Translations under genes and position numbers: made by a program
Assembly (NCBI GenBank): GCA_028696945.1
Contig: JAQVGD010000002.1
Span: 1 to 34,542, forward strand
Source of the DNA: Lutibacter sp.
Lineage (GTDB): Bacteria; Bacteroidota; Bacteroidia; Flavobacteriales; Flavobacteriaceae
Direction of reading: 5' to 3'
DNA: 34,542 nt
Shown: positions 9,350 through 13,307 of the stretch, piece by piece
Position numbering within the stretch: the stretch's first letter is position 1
Layout of the letters: each line of letters begins with the position of its first letter
The notes under the pieces: model-generated
The model's database searches: none
Seen by the model: the letters and a program-made list of their open reading frames with translations, nothing else
What the model was told of the DNA's origin: nothing

Positions 9350-10258
9350 TTAAATGATGATACTTTTACCCTTGCTTCCCAAATTTTTATCACTGTCGAA
9401 ATAAAAATCTATTCTTCCTAAATTAATTCCATAGCAACCAACCTGATTTACCAACACATTTTCGCCAACACTATTTTTTGTGATGGTTGGCTTGGGCAAA
9501 AAAGTATGGGTATGGCCACCAATAATTAAATCGATATTTTTGGTTTTTGAAGCGATTACCAAGTCGCTTACTTTTTCATTTTTATAGTGATAGCCTAAAT
9601 GGGATAGGCAAATAACCAAATCACATTTTTCTTCCTCTTTTAAAATACGGCTCATATCCTGGGCAATTTCTATGGGATCTAGATAAATTGTTTCCTTATA
9701 CATTCTTGGATCCACCAAGCCAAGAAGTTCAACTCCCAAGCCAAAAACACCAATTTTGATACCGTCTTTCACAAAAATTTTATAAGGTTTTACGTGGGTA
9801 TTTAACACTGTATTTTTGAAATCGTAATTGGCCGACAAAAAGTCGAATTGTGCGTGAGGCAATTGCGAAAATAAGCCGTCGATGCCGTTGTCGAAATCGT
9901 GATTTCCAATAGTTGCGGCATCGTATTTTAACATGCTCATCAATTTAAATTCCAATTCACCTCCGTAAAAATTAAAGTACGGCGTTCCCTGAAAAATATC
10001 TCCGGCATCCAATAATAAGGTATTCGGATTTTCTTTTCGAATGGTTTCAACCAAAGTTGCACGTCGCGCAACGCCGCCCATATTAGAATATCGGCTGTCA
10101 GTGCTTGGAAATGGATCAATATGGCTGTGCACATCATTGGTGTGTAAAATGGTAATGTGCTTGGCATTTTTTGTAGCAAAAGATTGCAGTGAAAATCCGC
10201 CCAATGTTAAAAAGGCAGTTGCTGCCGTTGATTTTTGTATAAAATTTCTTCGTTTCAT
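9350..10258 (-). CDS. Exported metallophosphatase domain of a split 5'-nucleotidase
   Basis: 302 residues starting [21 protein letters not shown], a twin-arginine type signal. The calcineurin-like metal-binding motifs are all visible: [37 protein letters not shown] and GGHTHTF. UshA-type enzymes hydrolyse periplasmic nucleotides and need a second, substrate-binding C-terminal domain; here that domain is the next gene upstream (10792-11556). An in-frame ATG at 10303 lies within the last upstream repeat unit and would add 15 residues in front of the signal; I prefer 10258 because Tat signals start like this. Its start codon is the right arm of a predicted hairpin from the repeat array (10259-10788), which may control its translation. 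Confidence 0.88.
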
Positions 10259-10351
10259 CTGTTTAATTTTTATTTTTTTGTTGGTACAGATGCTGTTCGC
10301 CATTAATCATTCCTCTGTGTATCAAAATTTGTTATAGCTCGTTTCATCTGT

Positions 10352-10435
10352 TTAATTTTTATTTTTTTGTTGGTACAGATGCAGTTCGCCATTAATCATT
10401 CCTTTATGTATCAAAATTTGTAATGCTCGTTTCAT
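10352..10435 (-). CDS. Mini-ORF in fifth unit of the minus array (27 codons)
   Basis: Starts [17 protein letters not shown] and ends with an Asn/Lys-rich tail read from the linker, stop TAA at 10352-10354. It is the same reading frame as the 22-codon mini-ORF of the first plus-array unit. It reads through the CATCTGT arm and ends inside the predicted loop before the next start codon. It could be a translated leader rather than a functional peptide. Confidence 0.4.
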   Translation of the reverse strand: MKRALQILIHKGMINGELHLYQQKNKN

Positions 10436-10455
10436 TTGCTATTTTTTATTGTTTT

Positions 10456-10524
10456 TTATTTGTCAAATGGAACGCTCAGCATCTTTCTTTTTTCTGTTAG
10501 ATGATTCTGTTGTAGGCGTTTCAT
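10456..10524 (-). CDS. Mini-ORF in the divergent fourth unit (22 codons)
   Basis: Begins MKRLQQNHLTEKRKM and ends VPFDK then TAA. It has exactly the 22-codon length of the first plus-array mini-ORF, although the DNA between start and stop is almost unrelated. The stop again follows the left hairpin arm, here CATTTG, and precedes an A-rich linker to the next ATG. Confidence 0.4.
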   Translation of the reverse strand: MKRLQQNHLTEKRKMLSVPFDK

Positions 10525-10791
10525 CTGTTTAATTTTTATTTTTTTGTTGGTACAGATGCAGTTCGCCATTAATCATTCCTCTGTGTATCAAAATTTGTTA
10601 TGCTCGTTTCATCTGTTTAATTTTTATTTTTTTGTTGGTGCAGATGCAGTTCGCCATTAATCATTCCTTTATGTATCAAAATTTGTTATGCTCGTTTCAT
10701 CTGTTTAATTTTTATTTTTTTGTTGGTACAGATGCAGTTCGCCATTAATCATTCCTCTGTGTATCAAAATTTGTTATGCTCGTTTCATTAC

Positions 10792-11556
10792 CTAATTCTT
10801 TAGTATTTTTTCATTTCTAAATCTTCCATCCAAAGAAACTTTAACAGTATCTGTTTCCTTAAAATAATCGATAATAGCATTTCTTATCTTATAATCAAGG
10901 GAATATAAATGAACAGGATCTTTAAAGAAATTCATATTGTCACCGCCAGTTTGCAAATAATCTGAGGTCAACACAAAATAGGTTTTTAAAGTGTCAAGAG
11001 CAACGTTATTTATTTTTAAGTCGTAACCTTTTTCTGTGATGACCAAATTAAATTGTTTTGAAAGCGGATGTGCTTTATTTTCGGTAATTAGGTAATTTAC
11101 AAGTTCCGTTATTTTTTCAGAAGTCAATTCAACTACCACCAAACTATTTTCAAAAGGCATCAAATTAAAAGCACTTTCATTGGTAATATTTCCTTTGGAA
11201 ATTCCTGCCCTGATTCCGCCATAATTAAACATGGCAAAATCGATATTTTTTCCTGTTCTTGAATTAAATACTGGATTTGCCTTTTCAAAACTCAAATCTG
11301 CCATTAAATTTCCCAAACTACTTTCCAAATCCCCATCATTTCTATACAAATTTATTGGGGTGTAGCTAATTACGGTGGTCATTTCTTTTTCAACCTTTTC
11401 CCTATAAGGTTTAATGGTATTTTCAATTGTTTTGTCTGAAGCAATTGTTTCATTAATAGTTGTTTGACTTCCTTCTATTTTAACCAATTGGTTAAGCTGG
11501 CTTTTACAGCTGAAAAGCGTTAAGAAAATAATAAGCGGAATAATAAATTTTTTCAT
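10792..11556 (-). CDS. 5'-nucleotidase C-terminal domain lipoprotein
   Basis: 254 residues. The N-terminus MKKFIIPLIIFLTLFSC is a lipoprotein signal with Cys17 as the lipidation site. The body is the 5_nucleotid_C domain: GDLESSLGNLMADL near residues 75-88, FAMFNYGGIRAGISKGNIT near 108-126 and LTSDYLQTGGDNMNFF near 205-220. These motifs bind the nucleoside in UshA-type enzymes. The metallophosphatase half is encoded separately downstream, beyond the repeat array, an arrangement I recall as usual in Flavobacteriia. The two proteins may assemble outside the cytoplasm. Its stop codon lies 3 bases before the ATG of the first repeat unit. It is divergent from the DUF6913-like gene with 53 bp between the starts. 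Confidence 0.88.
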   Translation of the reverse strand: MKKFIIPLIIFLTLFSCKSQLNQLVKIEGSQTTINETIASDKTIENTIKPYREKVEKEMTTVISYTPINLYRNDGDLESSLGNLMADLSFEKANPVFNSRTGKNIDFAMFNYGGIRAGISKGNITNESAFNLMPFENSLVVVELTSEKITELVNYLITENKAHPLSKQFNLVITEKGYDLKINNVALDTLKTYFVLTSDYLQTGGDNMNFFKDPVHLYSLDYKIRNAIIDYFKETDTVKVSLDGRFRNEKILKN

Positions 11557-11588
11557 TGCTGCTATACTGATGATTTTAATTAATTTTG
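11556..11588 (+). promoter_or_regulatory. Promoter of the DUF6913-like gene and dapA
   Basis: TTG (11556-11558), 22 bases, then TAATTTTG (11581-11588), matching the Bacteroidota pattern. The expected start of transcription is about 11593, leaving a leader of roughly 17 bases before the ATG at 11610. The -33 element overlaps the start codon of the divergent gene, so the two transcription units share a very short control region. Confidence 0.55.
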
Positions 11589-11609
11589 TCTTCAGAATGG
11601 TAAATATAA

Positions 11610-12134
11610 ATGATTTTTACAGGATTTAAACGAAAAAGCAATCAAATTTTTTTTAAAAAAGCATTGCCGGGCTTTCTTAAAGACGAACATAAAAGTTCGT
11701 TTGAGGAAGTAAAAAAAGTGCTTGTTTTTTTAGATGAAAAGTCGAGAAAAGCACCTATTGTAAGCAAACTTGCAACGATTTTAAAAATTTCTGAAAGCGA
11801 TATTACAGTTGTTATTTTTCAAAGAAAATTGAAAAACGAGAAAGAGACAGAGGATATTATTACGCCCAAAGATTTTGGCTGGTATGGGAAAGTTGATGCT
11901 GAAAAATTGAAAAATATTTTAACAAATAAATACGATTTGTTAATTAATTATAGCAAAGTTGACAATGTCTATCTCAACATCCTATTATTGCATTGTAAAC
12001 CTGCATTTAAGGTTGGTTTTGCACATACGGACAAGCGTTTGTATGATTTAATGATTAGGTGCGAACTGGATGAATTAGACTTGTTTCATGAAGAATTAAT
12101 AAAATATTTAGTCATTTTAAAGATAGTGCGATGA
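11610..12134 (+). CDS. DUF6913-like conserved protein
   Basis: 174 residues, soluble, no signal peptide. It resembles the DUF6913 family, which in Flavobacteriia usually lies directly upstream of dapA, as here; I assign this from recall of the neighbourhood and sequence character. Features are a basic N-terminus (FKRKSNQIFFKKALPGF), the central KDFGWYGKVD stretch, NYSKVDNVYLNILLLHCKPAFKVGFAH and a C-terminal amphipathic helix. No catalytic motif is evident. Its TGA stop overlaps the ATG of the first repeat unit as ATGA (12131-12134), so a ribosome finishing this gene could start on the repeat mini-ORF. Confidence 0.75.
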   Translation: MIFTGFKRKSNQIFFKKALPGFLKDEHKSSFEEVKKVLVFLDEKSRKAPIVSKLATILKISESDITVVIFQRKLKNEKETEDIITPKDFGWYGKVDAEKLKNILTNKYDLLINYSKVDNVYLNILLLHCKPAFKVGFAHTDKRLYDLMIRCELDELDLFHEELIKYLVILKIVR

Positions 12135-12199
12135 AACGAGCATTACAAATTTTGATACACAGAGGAATGATTAATGGCGAACAGCATCTGTACCAATAA
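12131..12199 (+). CDS. Mini-ORF of unit 1, plus array (22 codons)
   Basis: Encodes a peptide starting [17 protein letters not shown] and ending HLYQ. The start codon overlaps the upstream stop (ATGA). Codons 19-21 are the CATCTGT hairpin arm and the TAA follows one codon later, so translation would open the arm and stop in the loop. Confidence 0.45.
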   Translation: MKRALQILIHRGMINGEQHLYQ

Positions 12200-12217
12200 A
12201 AAATAAAATATAAACAG

Positions 12218-12292
12218 ATGAAACGAGCATTACAAATTTTAATACACAAAAGAATGATAATGGCGAACAGCATCTGTACCAATAAAAAATAA
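12218..12292 (+). CDS. Mini-ORF of unit 2, plus array (24 codons)
   Basis: Begins [15 protein letters not shown] like unit 1, then a 1-base loss relative to unit 1 shifts the frame. The new frame still reads through CATCTGT and stops in the linker, 11 bases before the next ATG. Confidence 0.4.
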   Translation: MKRALQILIHKRMIMANSICTNKK

Positions 12293-12303
12293 AATATAAA
12301 CAG

Positions 12304-12420
12304 ATGAAACGAGCATTACAAATTTTGATACATTATGTAATGACAATGGTGAACCTGCCTGCTGGCAGGCAAGGTTTACCTGCTGTTAGGTTGGCAGCAT
12401 CTGTTACCGCTAAAAAATAA
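12304..12420 (+). CDS. Mini-ORF of unit 3, plus array (38 codons)
   Basis: Begins [16 protein letters not shown]. The frame stays open through the palindromic insertion (giving LPAGRQG), passes through CATCTGT and stops 11 bases before the dapA start. An open frame retained after such an insertion is compatible with selection for read-through of the arm, or chance. Confidence 0.4.
12348..12380. repeat. Imperfect palindrome inserted in repeat unit 3
   Basis: Left arm 12348-12362 (GGTGAACCTGCCTGC), 2-base centre, right arm 12365-12380 (GCAGGCAAGGTTTACC). The core CCTGCCTGC/GCAGGC resembles a palindromic motif that I recall as frequent in Bacteroidota intergenic DNA. It is GC-rich against its surroundings and is absent from the other eight units, so it arrived after the array formed. 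Confidence 0.7.
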
Positions 12421-12431
12421 AATATAAACAG

Positions 12432-13307
12432 ATGAAAGAATTATTAGGAACAGGAGTTGCTTTGGTAACACCTTTTAATGAAGATAAATCAGTAGATTTT
12501 GAAGGGCTAAAACGTTTGGTCAACTTTCAAATTGACAATGGCGTAAATTATCTGGTGATTTTAGGAACCACTGGTGAACCAGCTACTTTAACTTCAGAAG
12601 AAAAAAAACAAGTTAAGGCAACCATTATCAAGGCAAATAATGGTAGGCTTCCTTTGGTAATTGGCATTGGCGGAAATAATACCATGGCGGTTGTTAATGA
12701 GGTTAGAACTGAAGATTTATCAGCATTTTCTGCCATACTTTCTGTTTCACCTTATTATAATAAACCAACGCAGGAAGGAATTTACCAGCATTTTAAAGCC
12801 ATTTCAGAAGCAAGTCCGTTGCCAATTATTGTTTATAATGTACCTGGAAGAACCGCGAAAAATGTGGAGGCAAAAACCGTGATAAGATTGGCCAATGATT
12901 TTAAAAATATTGTGGCGGTAAAAGAAGCCGCTGGAGATATTGTGCAGGCGATGCGGTTAATTCAACAAAAACCTAAAGATTTTATGGTCATATCTGGCGA
13001 TGATATGATTGCTTTACCAATAGTGTTGGCTGGCGGCGCAGGTGTAATTTCGGTAATCGGACAAGGTTTGCCTAAAGATTTTTCAGAAATGATTCAGCAA
13101 GCTTTAAAAGGAAATGTAGCGAAAGCCAATGCTTTACACTACAAAGTTATGGATTGCATAGATTATATATTTGAAGAAGGAAACCCAGCAGGGATTAAAA
13201 CATTGTTGAAAAGTTTTGGTATTTGTTCTGAAAACGTGAGGTTGCCTTTAGTGAATGCTTCTTATGATTTACAACAAAAAATTGCTAACTTTGCAGCTAA
13301 ATATTAG
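12432..13307 (+). CDS. dapA: 4-hydroxy-tetrahydrodipicolinate synthase
   Basis: 291 residues, normal for DapA. It condenses pyruvate and aspartate semialdehyde, the first committed step to diaminopimelate and lysine, feeding peptidoglycan synthesis in the cytoplasm. The TIM-barrel signature is clear: [10 protein letters not shown] with Thr46 and Thr47, [13 protein letters not shown], the Tyr of [11 protein letters not shown] and the Schiff-base Lys in VAVKEAAGD. The C-terminal helical part is complete ([13 protein letters not shown]). The start ATG at 12432 is preceded by AAACAG and is the right arm of the hairpin formed with CATCTGT (12398-12404) of repeat unit 3; no purine-rich Shine-Dalgarno site is seen. 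Translation may therefore depend on ribosomes coming from the repeat units. Confidence 0.97.

Follow-up and report, generated by a model that had tools for sequence, protein, structure and literature searches.

The window analysed here is a stretch of 34,542 nucleotides (nt) from a Lutibacter sp. genome of the Flavobacteriaceae (GenBank assembly GCA_028696945.1, contig JAQVGD010000002.1, positions 1 to 34,542 of the forward strand). Its subject is a repeated unit of about 88 base pairs (bp) that forms two tandem arrays, each of which ends exactly where a gene begins. Tandem Repeats Finder detected a period of 88 bp at 10250-10788 (6.1 copies) and one of 86 bp at 12130-12354 (2.6 copies). Unit borders were set by cutting at ATGAAACG, which heads all nine units, and in both arrays the base after the last unit is the A of an ATG. 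The six-element array (10259-10788, minus strand) lies 5' of a calcineurin-like phosphoesterase gene (Metallophos, PF00149; 9350-10258), while the gene upstream of it encodes a 5'-nucleotidase C-terminal protein (PF02872). Its first unit (10701-10788) begins after a gap of 3 bases past the upstream TAG and is followed by units 2 (10613-10700) and 3 (10525-10612), all three of 88 bp and of what we call family 1. The fourth unit (10436-10524, 89 bp) belongs to a second family, with a stem AACGC/GCGTT and a CATTTG paired with CAA-ATG (here and below the hyphen marks the end of the element). Family 1 units 5 (10348-10435, 88 bp) and 6 (10259-10347, 89 bp) complete the array, and the end of the latter abuts the gene start, whose ATGAAA occupies 10253-10258 on the minus strand. 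In the case of the plus-strand array, the ATGA of the first family 1 unit (12131-12217, 87 bp) is shared with the stop of a DUF6913 gene (11610-12134). Unit 2 (12218-12303, 86 bp) and unit 3 (12304-12431) follow, the latter measuring 128 bp because a palindrome, CCTGCCTGCTGGCAGGCAAGG, is nested in its variable region. The ATGAAA at 12432-12437 then opens dapA (dihydrodipicolinate synthase family, PF00701; 12432-13307).

The original prediction had described two arrays of six minus-strand and three plus-strand units, beginning 3 bases beyond a TAG or overlapping a stop as ATGA and ending exactly at an ATG, and both repeat detection and unit cutting agree with it. The nine units it counted are there, albeit not as nine alike 88-bp copies, given the second-family unit and the 128-bp unit. 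The fit from stop to start is real, unusual and recurs across relatives; for instance, the phosphoesterase gene start of one relative (genome G003, locus L072) carries one unit at the same place. The variable region of family 1, from GCGAA to TACC, exchanges one hairpin for another (AACAGCAGCTGTT, TCCCGAATTTTCGGGA, CCTGCC..GGCAGG; window 12304-12431 and loci L098, L104, L088, L125), as if it took in foreign palindromes.

In our interpretation, each unit is probably a copy of a mobile element that is about 90 bp long and non-autonomous and that inserts directly 5' of ATGAAA, mostly at start codons. The unit has at least 110 blast matches in the host genome (G000; 3.36 Mb in 310 contigs), a lower bound as 40 of 151 candidates were scored, and 34 of 60 genomes searched, the host among them, hold matches. 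Among the matches listed, the core pattern occurs in metagenome-assembled genomes titled Lutibacter, Gelidibacter, Flavobacteriaceae, Flavobacteriia and Bacteroidetes bacterium HGW-Bacteroidetes-3.

To describe the borders, 176 arrays from 144 loci were surveyed. The left hexamer is ATGAAA in 152 of them, ATAAAA in 8 and another sequence in 7, with 9 unread. The right hexamer is ATGAAA in 136 of the 147 arrays in which it was fully read, the other 11 having a different full hexamer, and it is unread or cut in 29. A recognised right end followed by more than 150 bp was available for 140 arrays; the ATG at the array end opens an open reading frame (ORF) of at least 60 amino acids in 109 of them and does not in 31. 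Together with the number of matches in the host genome, this argues that the repeats are not a product of chance. As a reference, the same loci with arrays masked hold unoccupied non-coding ATGAAA at 181 starts (159 called, 19 near a called start, 3 at uncalled ORFs) and at 205 places elsewhere, besides 1400 within genes. Arrays exceed these unoccupied sites at start codons with an odds ratio of 4.0 (p = 1.3e-10). Of 22 arrays away from starts with both neighbours known, 1 has a position upstream of a gene in a divergent gap, compared to 49 of 187 unoccupied sites; either targeting or selection against insertion elsewhere could thus underlie the excess at starts.

The upstream side of the arrays bears on the explanation offered by the original prediction, namely that a translated or translation-controlling cassette had been duplicated at junctions between co-transcribed genes. 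When 132 arrays were classed, 103 were at starts, and among the 93 of these with a readable upstream gene, that gene is on the same strand in 73 and on the opposite strand in 20. The tandem arrays and the 73 same-strand cases agree with such a cassette. The 20 opposite-strand cases contradict a confinement to co-transcribed junctions; thus, when the unit is followed through this genome and its relatives, as had been proposed, the ending at an ORF start holds widely and the same-strand neighbour only in part. Copies are also dispersed, with a single family 1 match in 90 of 155 arrays. Translation of the unit was considered as well: in the 212 family 1 units that measure 80-135 bp, a frame opened at the unit ATG closes after 4 codons in 120, after 14 in 30, after 27 in 19 and after 22 in 17, and other frames vary. 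A translated micro-peptide was rejected on these frame statistics and on the lack of a conserved peptide. Since, in addition, related species share gene starts without any unit, which also excludes tandem duplication of an ancestral junction as the sole process, we consider the duplicated cassette highly improbable.

These unoccupied starts speak for insertion. N-termini of the downstream genes were compared between loci (84 comparisons, several low-identity paralogues being set aside by eye), and twelve gene starts were found where a relative shares the start without a unit. In one pair, L122 and L056 differ only by the array, bar a few base changes. The other starts with a unit on one side of the comparison are L078 and L093 against L099, L159 against L163 and L042, L102 against L041, L078 and L163 against L161, L069 against L138, L066 and L100 against L157, L061 against L147, L073 and L075 against L041, L077 against L122, L043 against L164, and L080 against L137. 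Leaders are recognisably similar within the pairs, with the exception of L080 and L137. L080 is informative in another way, as its right hexamer is ATGAAT, identical to that of the empty allele, and its left hexamer is ATGAAA; this indicates that the right copy is the host's and the left copy the element's. With ATGAA at both ends, near-constant on the left and variable on the right, a target duplication of up to 5 bp is still compatible with the data.

The dapA start was inspected in 30 loci of the genus, 27 of them readable. Five carry family 1 (G000, G002, G006, G015 and, in degenerate form, G022), one carries another family (G028), and 21 are without a recognisable unit; family 1 units were judged here by eye over the last 75 bases, and the ambiguous G020 is counted among the 21. 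All filled alleles start with ATGAAAG. Without a unit, the start reads ATGATAG in G003, G026, G029, G001, G034 and G010, ATGAGAG in G016 and ATGAAAG in G005; thus all seven close relatives with ATGATA or ATGAGA are free of units. In G005 and G001 the dapA start overlaps the upstream stop (GTGCAATGA). The array of the window therefore spans from stop to start, because insertion at an overlapping ATGA keeps the left ATGA as stop and the right ATG as start.

The element is not restricted to family 1. With the second-family unit as query, partial matches were obtained genus-wide, at its 3' half, and these sites reveal more families built on one plan, in which ATGAA is followed by a stem, CATxyz, a stretch rich in A and three bases, after which comes the ATGAA of the host. 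At the level of the order, one further family occurs in 33 of 196 genomes, and its end ATG opens an ORF of at least 60 amino acids in 27 of 30 loci among the matches listed. In the host genome, 15 of 17 second-family copies listed are flanked on both sides by family 1 and the other 2 are cut by contig ends. ATAAAACGAGC comes next in 12 of 16 copies (L038, L041, L043, L044, L045, L048, L050, L056, L057, L061 and the window among them), which suggests that the two families amplify together, as a composite of about 177 bp. In G010 (L234) a second-family unit directly adjoins a host gene.

The common plan corresponds to a fold of two hairpins. The first, P1, lies right behind the left ATGAA, and its stem differs between families (AATGAGCAT/ATGCGAATT; AATCGC/GCGATT; AATAGCCAT/ATGGCTATT; AACACCCATGAT/ATCATGGGTGTT; AATGTCCATAAT/ATTATGGACATT). 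In the second, P2, the internal CATxyz is complementary to the last three bases of the element plus the adjacent ATG: CATATG/CAT-ATG, CATCTG/CAG-ATG, CATTTG/CAA-ATG, CATGTG/CAC-ATG and further CATATC/GAT-ATG (L298) and CATAAG/CTT-ATG (L286). When elements were picked by a pattern that did not require complementarity, full P2 was present in 24 of 26. Among 332 A-rich tails, 232 of which have CAG as their last bases and belong mostly to family 1, CAT followed by the complement of the last three bases was found in 131, compared to 77.3 with partners shuffled. An alignment of 25 hand-picked divergent elements (A1) has 78.1% paired cells against 66.9% in shuffles and at most 38.2% when slid, and a covariation of 0.244 against 0.082 and at most 0.099, respectively. 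At L343 (740-832) the target is GTGAAA and the internal CACCTG pairs with CAG-GTG, so that both sides of P2 are changed; no long ORF follows.

A covariance model built on these 25 elements matched (E <= 1e-4) 46 of 198 Bacteroidia genomes, in 27 of 121 genera. An ORF start lies at the end of 68 of the 94 class-wide matches that are followed by at least 190 nt; when the top match per genome is taken, this is so in 25 of 29 genomes, with L280 and L284 being identical. A second alignment (A2) comprises 97 class-wide matches from 88 of 89 loci, L284 being omitted because L280 carries the identical element, and 60 of the loci were drawn from the model matches listed. P2 is Watson-Crick in 568 of 580 cells of A2, and its variable pair is AT in 38 rows, CG in 29, GC in 18 and TA in 5. 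Comparison between genomes in this way establishes the presence and absence at shared gene starts, the target, the precision of the borders, the covarying fold and the class-wide spread.

Two further observations concern the choice of sites. A guide-like selection of targets by the last three bases of the element was rejected, as class-wide left flanks match these bases in 3 of 96 cases and in 3.0 when shuffled. In family 1, left flanks end in CAG in 12 of 135 cases, whereas unoccupied sites do so in 5 of 367. Of these 12 flanks, 6 resemble tails of older copies, which leaves 6 without explanation. The left flanks of young elements in L054, L237 and L076 look like decayed tails of older ones (TATGACCGAATTAAAACAATAAA...), and the same gene starts seem to be hit repeatedly. 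Family 1 arrays are also found within a dispersed palindromic repeat (TCCCTCTGGGACT...GCTCCGTAGGAGC...TGTTTGTAGAAAA; L042, L056, L066, L230), so that mobile repeats nest in the host genome. Contigs C13 (end 51947), C172, C203, C257 and C58 of the host assembly start or stop within arrays or up to 100 bases away; arrays thus probably fragment assemblies, and copy numbers are underestimated.

Since P2 includes the start codon, an effect on translation was considered. Folded as RNA without the model, five units gave P1 in four, full P2 in four and both in three, with P1 shifted in the window unit, P2 shortened in L300 and z-scores from -6.3 to -1.05. The predicted probability that the start codon is unpaired is 0.15 in elements, 0.46 in shuffled ones (one shuffle per element) and 0.39 when called ATGAAA starts of Lutibacter loci are taken, including occupied ones. 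In Flavobacterium johnsoniae, initiation is favoured by low structure, by A at -3 and -6 and by an A motif at -12/-13, and Bacteroidia avoid AUGs near starts (PMC8710568). The elements add structure and AUGs yet keep an A-rich leader, from which a lowered or conditional initiation of the downstream gene is likely, as far as predicted folds allow. The translation-controlling part of the original prediction is consequently plausible, since folding predictions place the start codon within the end hairpin.

These same data could be taken to mean that the unit is primarily a cis-regulatory RNA kept by the host, in which the start codon is masked by P2 and freed when a factor binds the A-rich loop or P1. 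Copies would then have spread for the usefulness of regulation, with mobility secondary. The masked start, the model-free folds, the covariation in both alignments and the benefit of low start structure in F. johnsoniae (PMC8710568) are all in line with this. Its distribution is less so: 31 of the 140 arrays lie away from an ORF start, dapA is without a unit in most relatives (21 of 27), and P2 forms between units within arrays too, where no gene follows. Furthermore, no shared theme was noticed in the downstream genes, whose names, besides that of dapA, are presumed from the peptides. We therefore regard a primarily regulatory origin as unlikely.

Returning to the element as a mobile unit, the question is which strand folds and which enzyme moves it. 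Tandem G.A mismatches are stable as sheared pairs, their complement is not. In P1, a tandem 5'-GA/5'-GA replaces two pairs in 31 of the 97 rows of A2, and G.A outnumber T.C mismatches by 84 to 16 in A2 and by 33 to 5 in A1. This excess points to the sense strand, not the minus strand, as the folded one. The ratio of G.U to A.C gives 34:18 in A2 and 10:16 in A1, so that the alignments contradict each other in this respect.

Viewed on the minus strand, the element lies 3' of TTTCAT in the 136 of 147 fully read arrays. This layout, with a fixed flank on one side and the identical sequence at the element end, is what an IS200/IS605-type or RAYT-type system (RAYT, REP-associated tyrosine transposase; REP, repetitive extragenic palindromic sequence) with its Y1 HUH transposase could produce if the minus strand were inserted 3' of TTTCAT and the target were not duplicated. 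Y1 genes are indeed commoner where the element is present (41 of 46 against 102 of 152 genomes, p = 0.0027). However, the tandem G.A/A.G and the G.A excess in P1 fit the sense strand, with G.U/A.C undecided, and the element was detected (E < 0.001) near only 1 of 51 Y1 loci (L174), whose flanks covered about 1.5 kb or more where the contig permits. Y1 loci with inspected flanks bear other palindromes instead. A Y1 transposase as partner was thus promising at first and then weakened by the flanks and by the likely strand of the fold, and we consider it improbable. The palindromes at Y1/RAYT genes in Lutibacter and elsewhere in its family, e.g. GTCCCTAACGGGAC, CCCACGGTTTAAACCGTGGG and GCACGGATTGCAAATCCGCGC (L181, L184, L185, L183, L182, L196, L203, L367, L368, L381), make these loci apparent RAYT/REP pairs in their own right. 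A profile search for the Y2 transposase PF04986 gave no match, with the controls likewise silent.

A sense-strand structure and a preference for start codons would also be expected of a spread via an RNA intermediate that is reverse transcribed into sites defined by messenger RNA. Here, RVT_1 shows no association with the element (14 of 46 positive against 51 of 152 negative genomes), and it is missing (E <= 0.001) from 4 of 8 genomes with at least 10 model matches. Insertions away from starts are 9 sense and 6 antisense, against 56 and 59 in the null, an antisense share close to what chance predicts. Taken together, an RNA route has very little to recommend it.

Several points weigh against our own interpretation of a mobile element that targets start codons. 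The start-codon excess could be due to selection against insertion elsewhere and not to targeting. Some empty alleles read ATGAAC (L164), ATGACA (L130), ATGGAG (L078) or, at dapA, ATGATA (L072), while the filled ones have ATGAAA, so that part of the right hexamer might be brought by the element or be a later change. We looked for an age gradient within arrays and saw none, and growth by insertion proximal to the start is not supported. Regarding the fold, the picking patterns of A1 demanded a CA..TG-type hexamer or an A-rich tail, and A2 was fitted to the model based on A1. CAGCTG, which breaks one pair of P2, occurs in 74 of 212 family 1 units against 83 with CATCTG and 53 unread, and the fold of L235 (z -1.05) is no better than that of 25 of 200 shuffles. 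Finally, no mobilising enzyme was found, Y1 and reverse transcriptase having been examined across 198 Bacteroidia genomes, and no gene-bearing copy was found among 227 left ends in the DNA examined. A recognised right end within 220 nt is missing from 14 of these left ends, and over 120 nt none of the 14 resembles a larger version. Overall, mobility and target remain well supported.

A probable course of events can be outlined on this basis. The left end of the element carries its own ATGAAA, and because of this insertion spares both the upstream stop, where it overlaps as ATGA, and the ATG that starts the downstream gene, the A-rich tail becoming the new leader of the gene. The sense strand forms P1 right behind the left ATGAA and then P2, in which the internal CATxyz pairs with the last three bases of the element and the adjacent ATG. 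Such a folded strand may be the substrate of a recombinase or transposase supplied in trans. Fresh insertions at the ATGAAA heading every unit might enlarge the arrays, as might unequal exchange among copies, and translation of the downstream gene may be lowered or tuned by the P2 hairpin. Recombination chemistry and regulatory role are what we infer here. In its full form, the proposal is of an undescribed, class-wide mobile element targeting the start codon, a strand of about 90 nt whose CATxyz holds both its own end and the host ATG during integration. The protein would be spared, the leader would become a start-masking hairpin, and the enzyme would be either a novel recombinase or a host recombinase put to a new use. 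We put this forward tentatively, as a proposal that has nearly, though not quite, an even chance of being right.

Comparison to known systems was undertaken as well. Like REP sequences and REPINs with their RAYT (TnpA-REP) partners, as these are described (PMC8266576, PMC3116915), the elements are short, non-coding, geneless and present in many copies, and a folded single strand matters. REPs are palindromes behind a conserved motif, GTAG in two studied systems (PMC8266576). GTAG is not conserved among the 25 aligned elements, which, unlike REPs, start with ATGAAA, precede ATGAAA and pair with the start codon; unlike REPs and REPINs flanking RAYT genes, they are near 1 of 51 Y1 loci. Miniature inverted-repeat transposable elements (MITEs; e.g. 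PMC4596501, PMC6382973) are described as similarly small, non-autonomous and dispersed, with alleles that lack the element. Unlike MITEs, the elements have an ATGAAA border, and no parent transposon was found in the DNA examined. As for terminal inverted repeats, the unit ends ATGAAACGAGC and TTTAAACAG are not inverted, and in other families, inspected by eye, none were seen. Integron attC sites are imperfect hairpins with short fixed terminal triplets, an unpaired spacer and a variable stem and loop, and they occur in tandem arrays; integron core triplets are other than ATG/CAT. The element resembles attC in form, and differs in its fixed triplets ATG/CAT and in having its copies at gene starts.

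The nearest description we found is that of the TAACTGA repeats of Beggiatoaceae, which are reported to be tandem, to lie just 5' of start codons and to occur in five Bacteroidetes too (PMC4679880). These are simple repeats of 7 bases (PMC4679880), whereas the elements are folded insertions of 90 bp with empty alleles. The Flavo-1 RNA motif (RF01705) is likewise a structured Bacteroidetes motif whose function is not known (PMC2864571, PMC9723704). An Rfam search (E <= 1) of window positions 9900-12700 and ten relatives returned a chance-level small nucleolar RNA model and transfer RNA only, and no Flavo-1. The view that no described family has this layout is thereby borne out, within a literature search that had most subscription papers outside its coverage and found no description of the elements. 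Broadly, these are small non-autonomous mobile repeats, and their target, fold and spread fit none of the described families tested.

Mobile elements are usually seen as disrupting genes or as hiding between them. Here, they occupy the very point on which translation depends, and in some genomes they do so at dozens of genes. Should initiation be governed by the hairpin, an acquired, family-wide translational switch would be present on many genes of a large bacterial class, and differences in occupancy among strains would be expression variation that is invisible to gene annotation. A recombinase, if found, would be a tool for placing DNA precisely 5' of start codons. The elements also raise a testable question, namely how a masked AUG is dealt with in Bacteroidia, whose ribosomes seldom rely on Shine-Dalgarno pairing.

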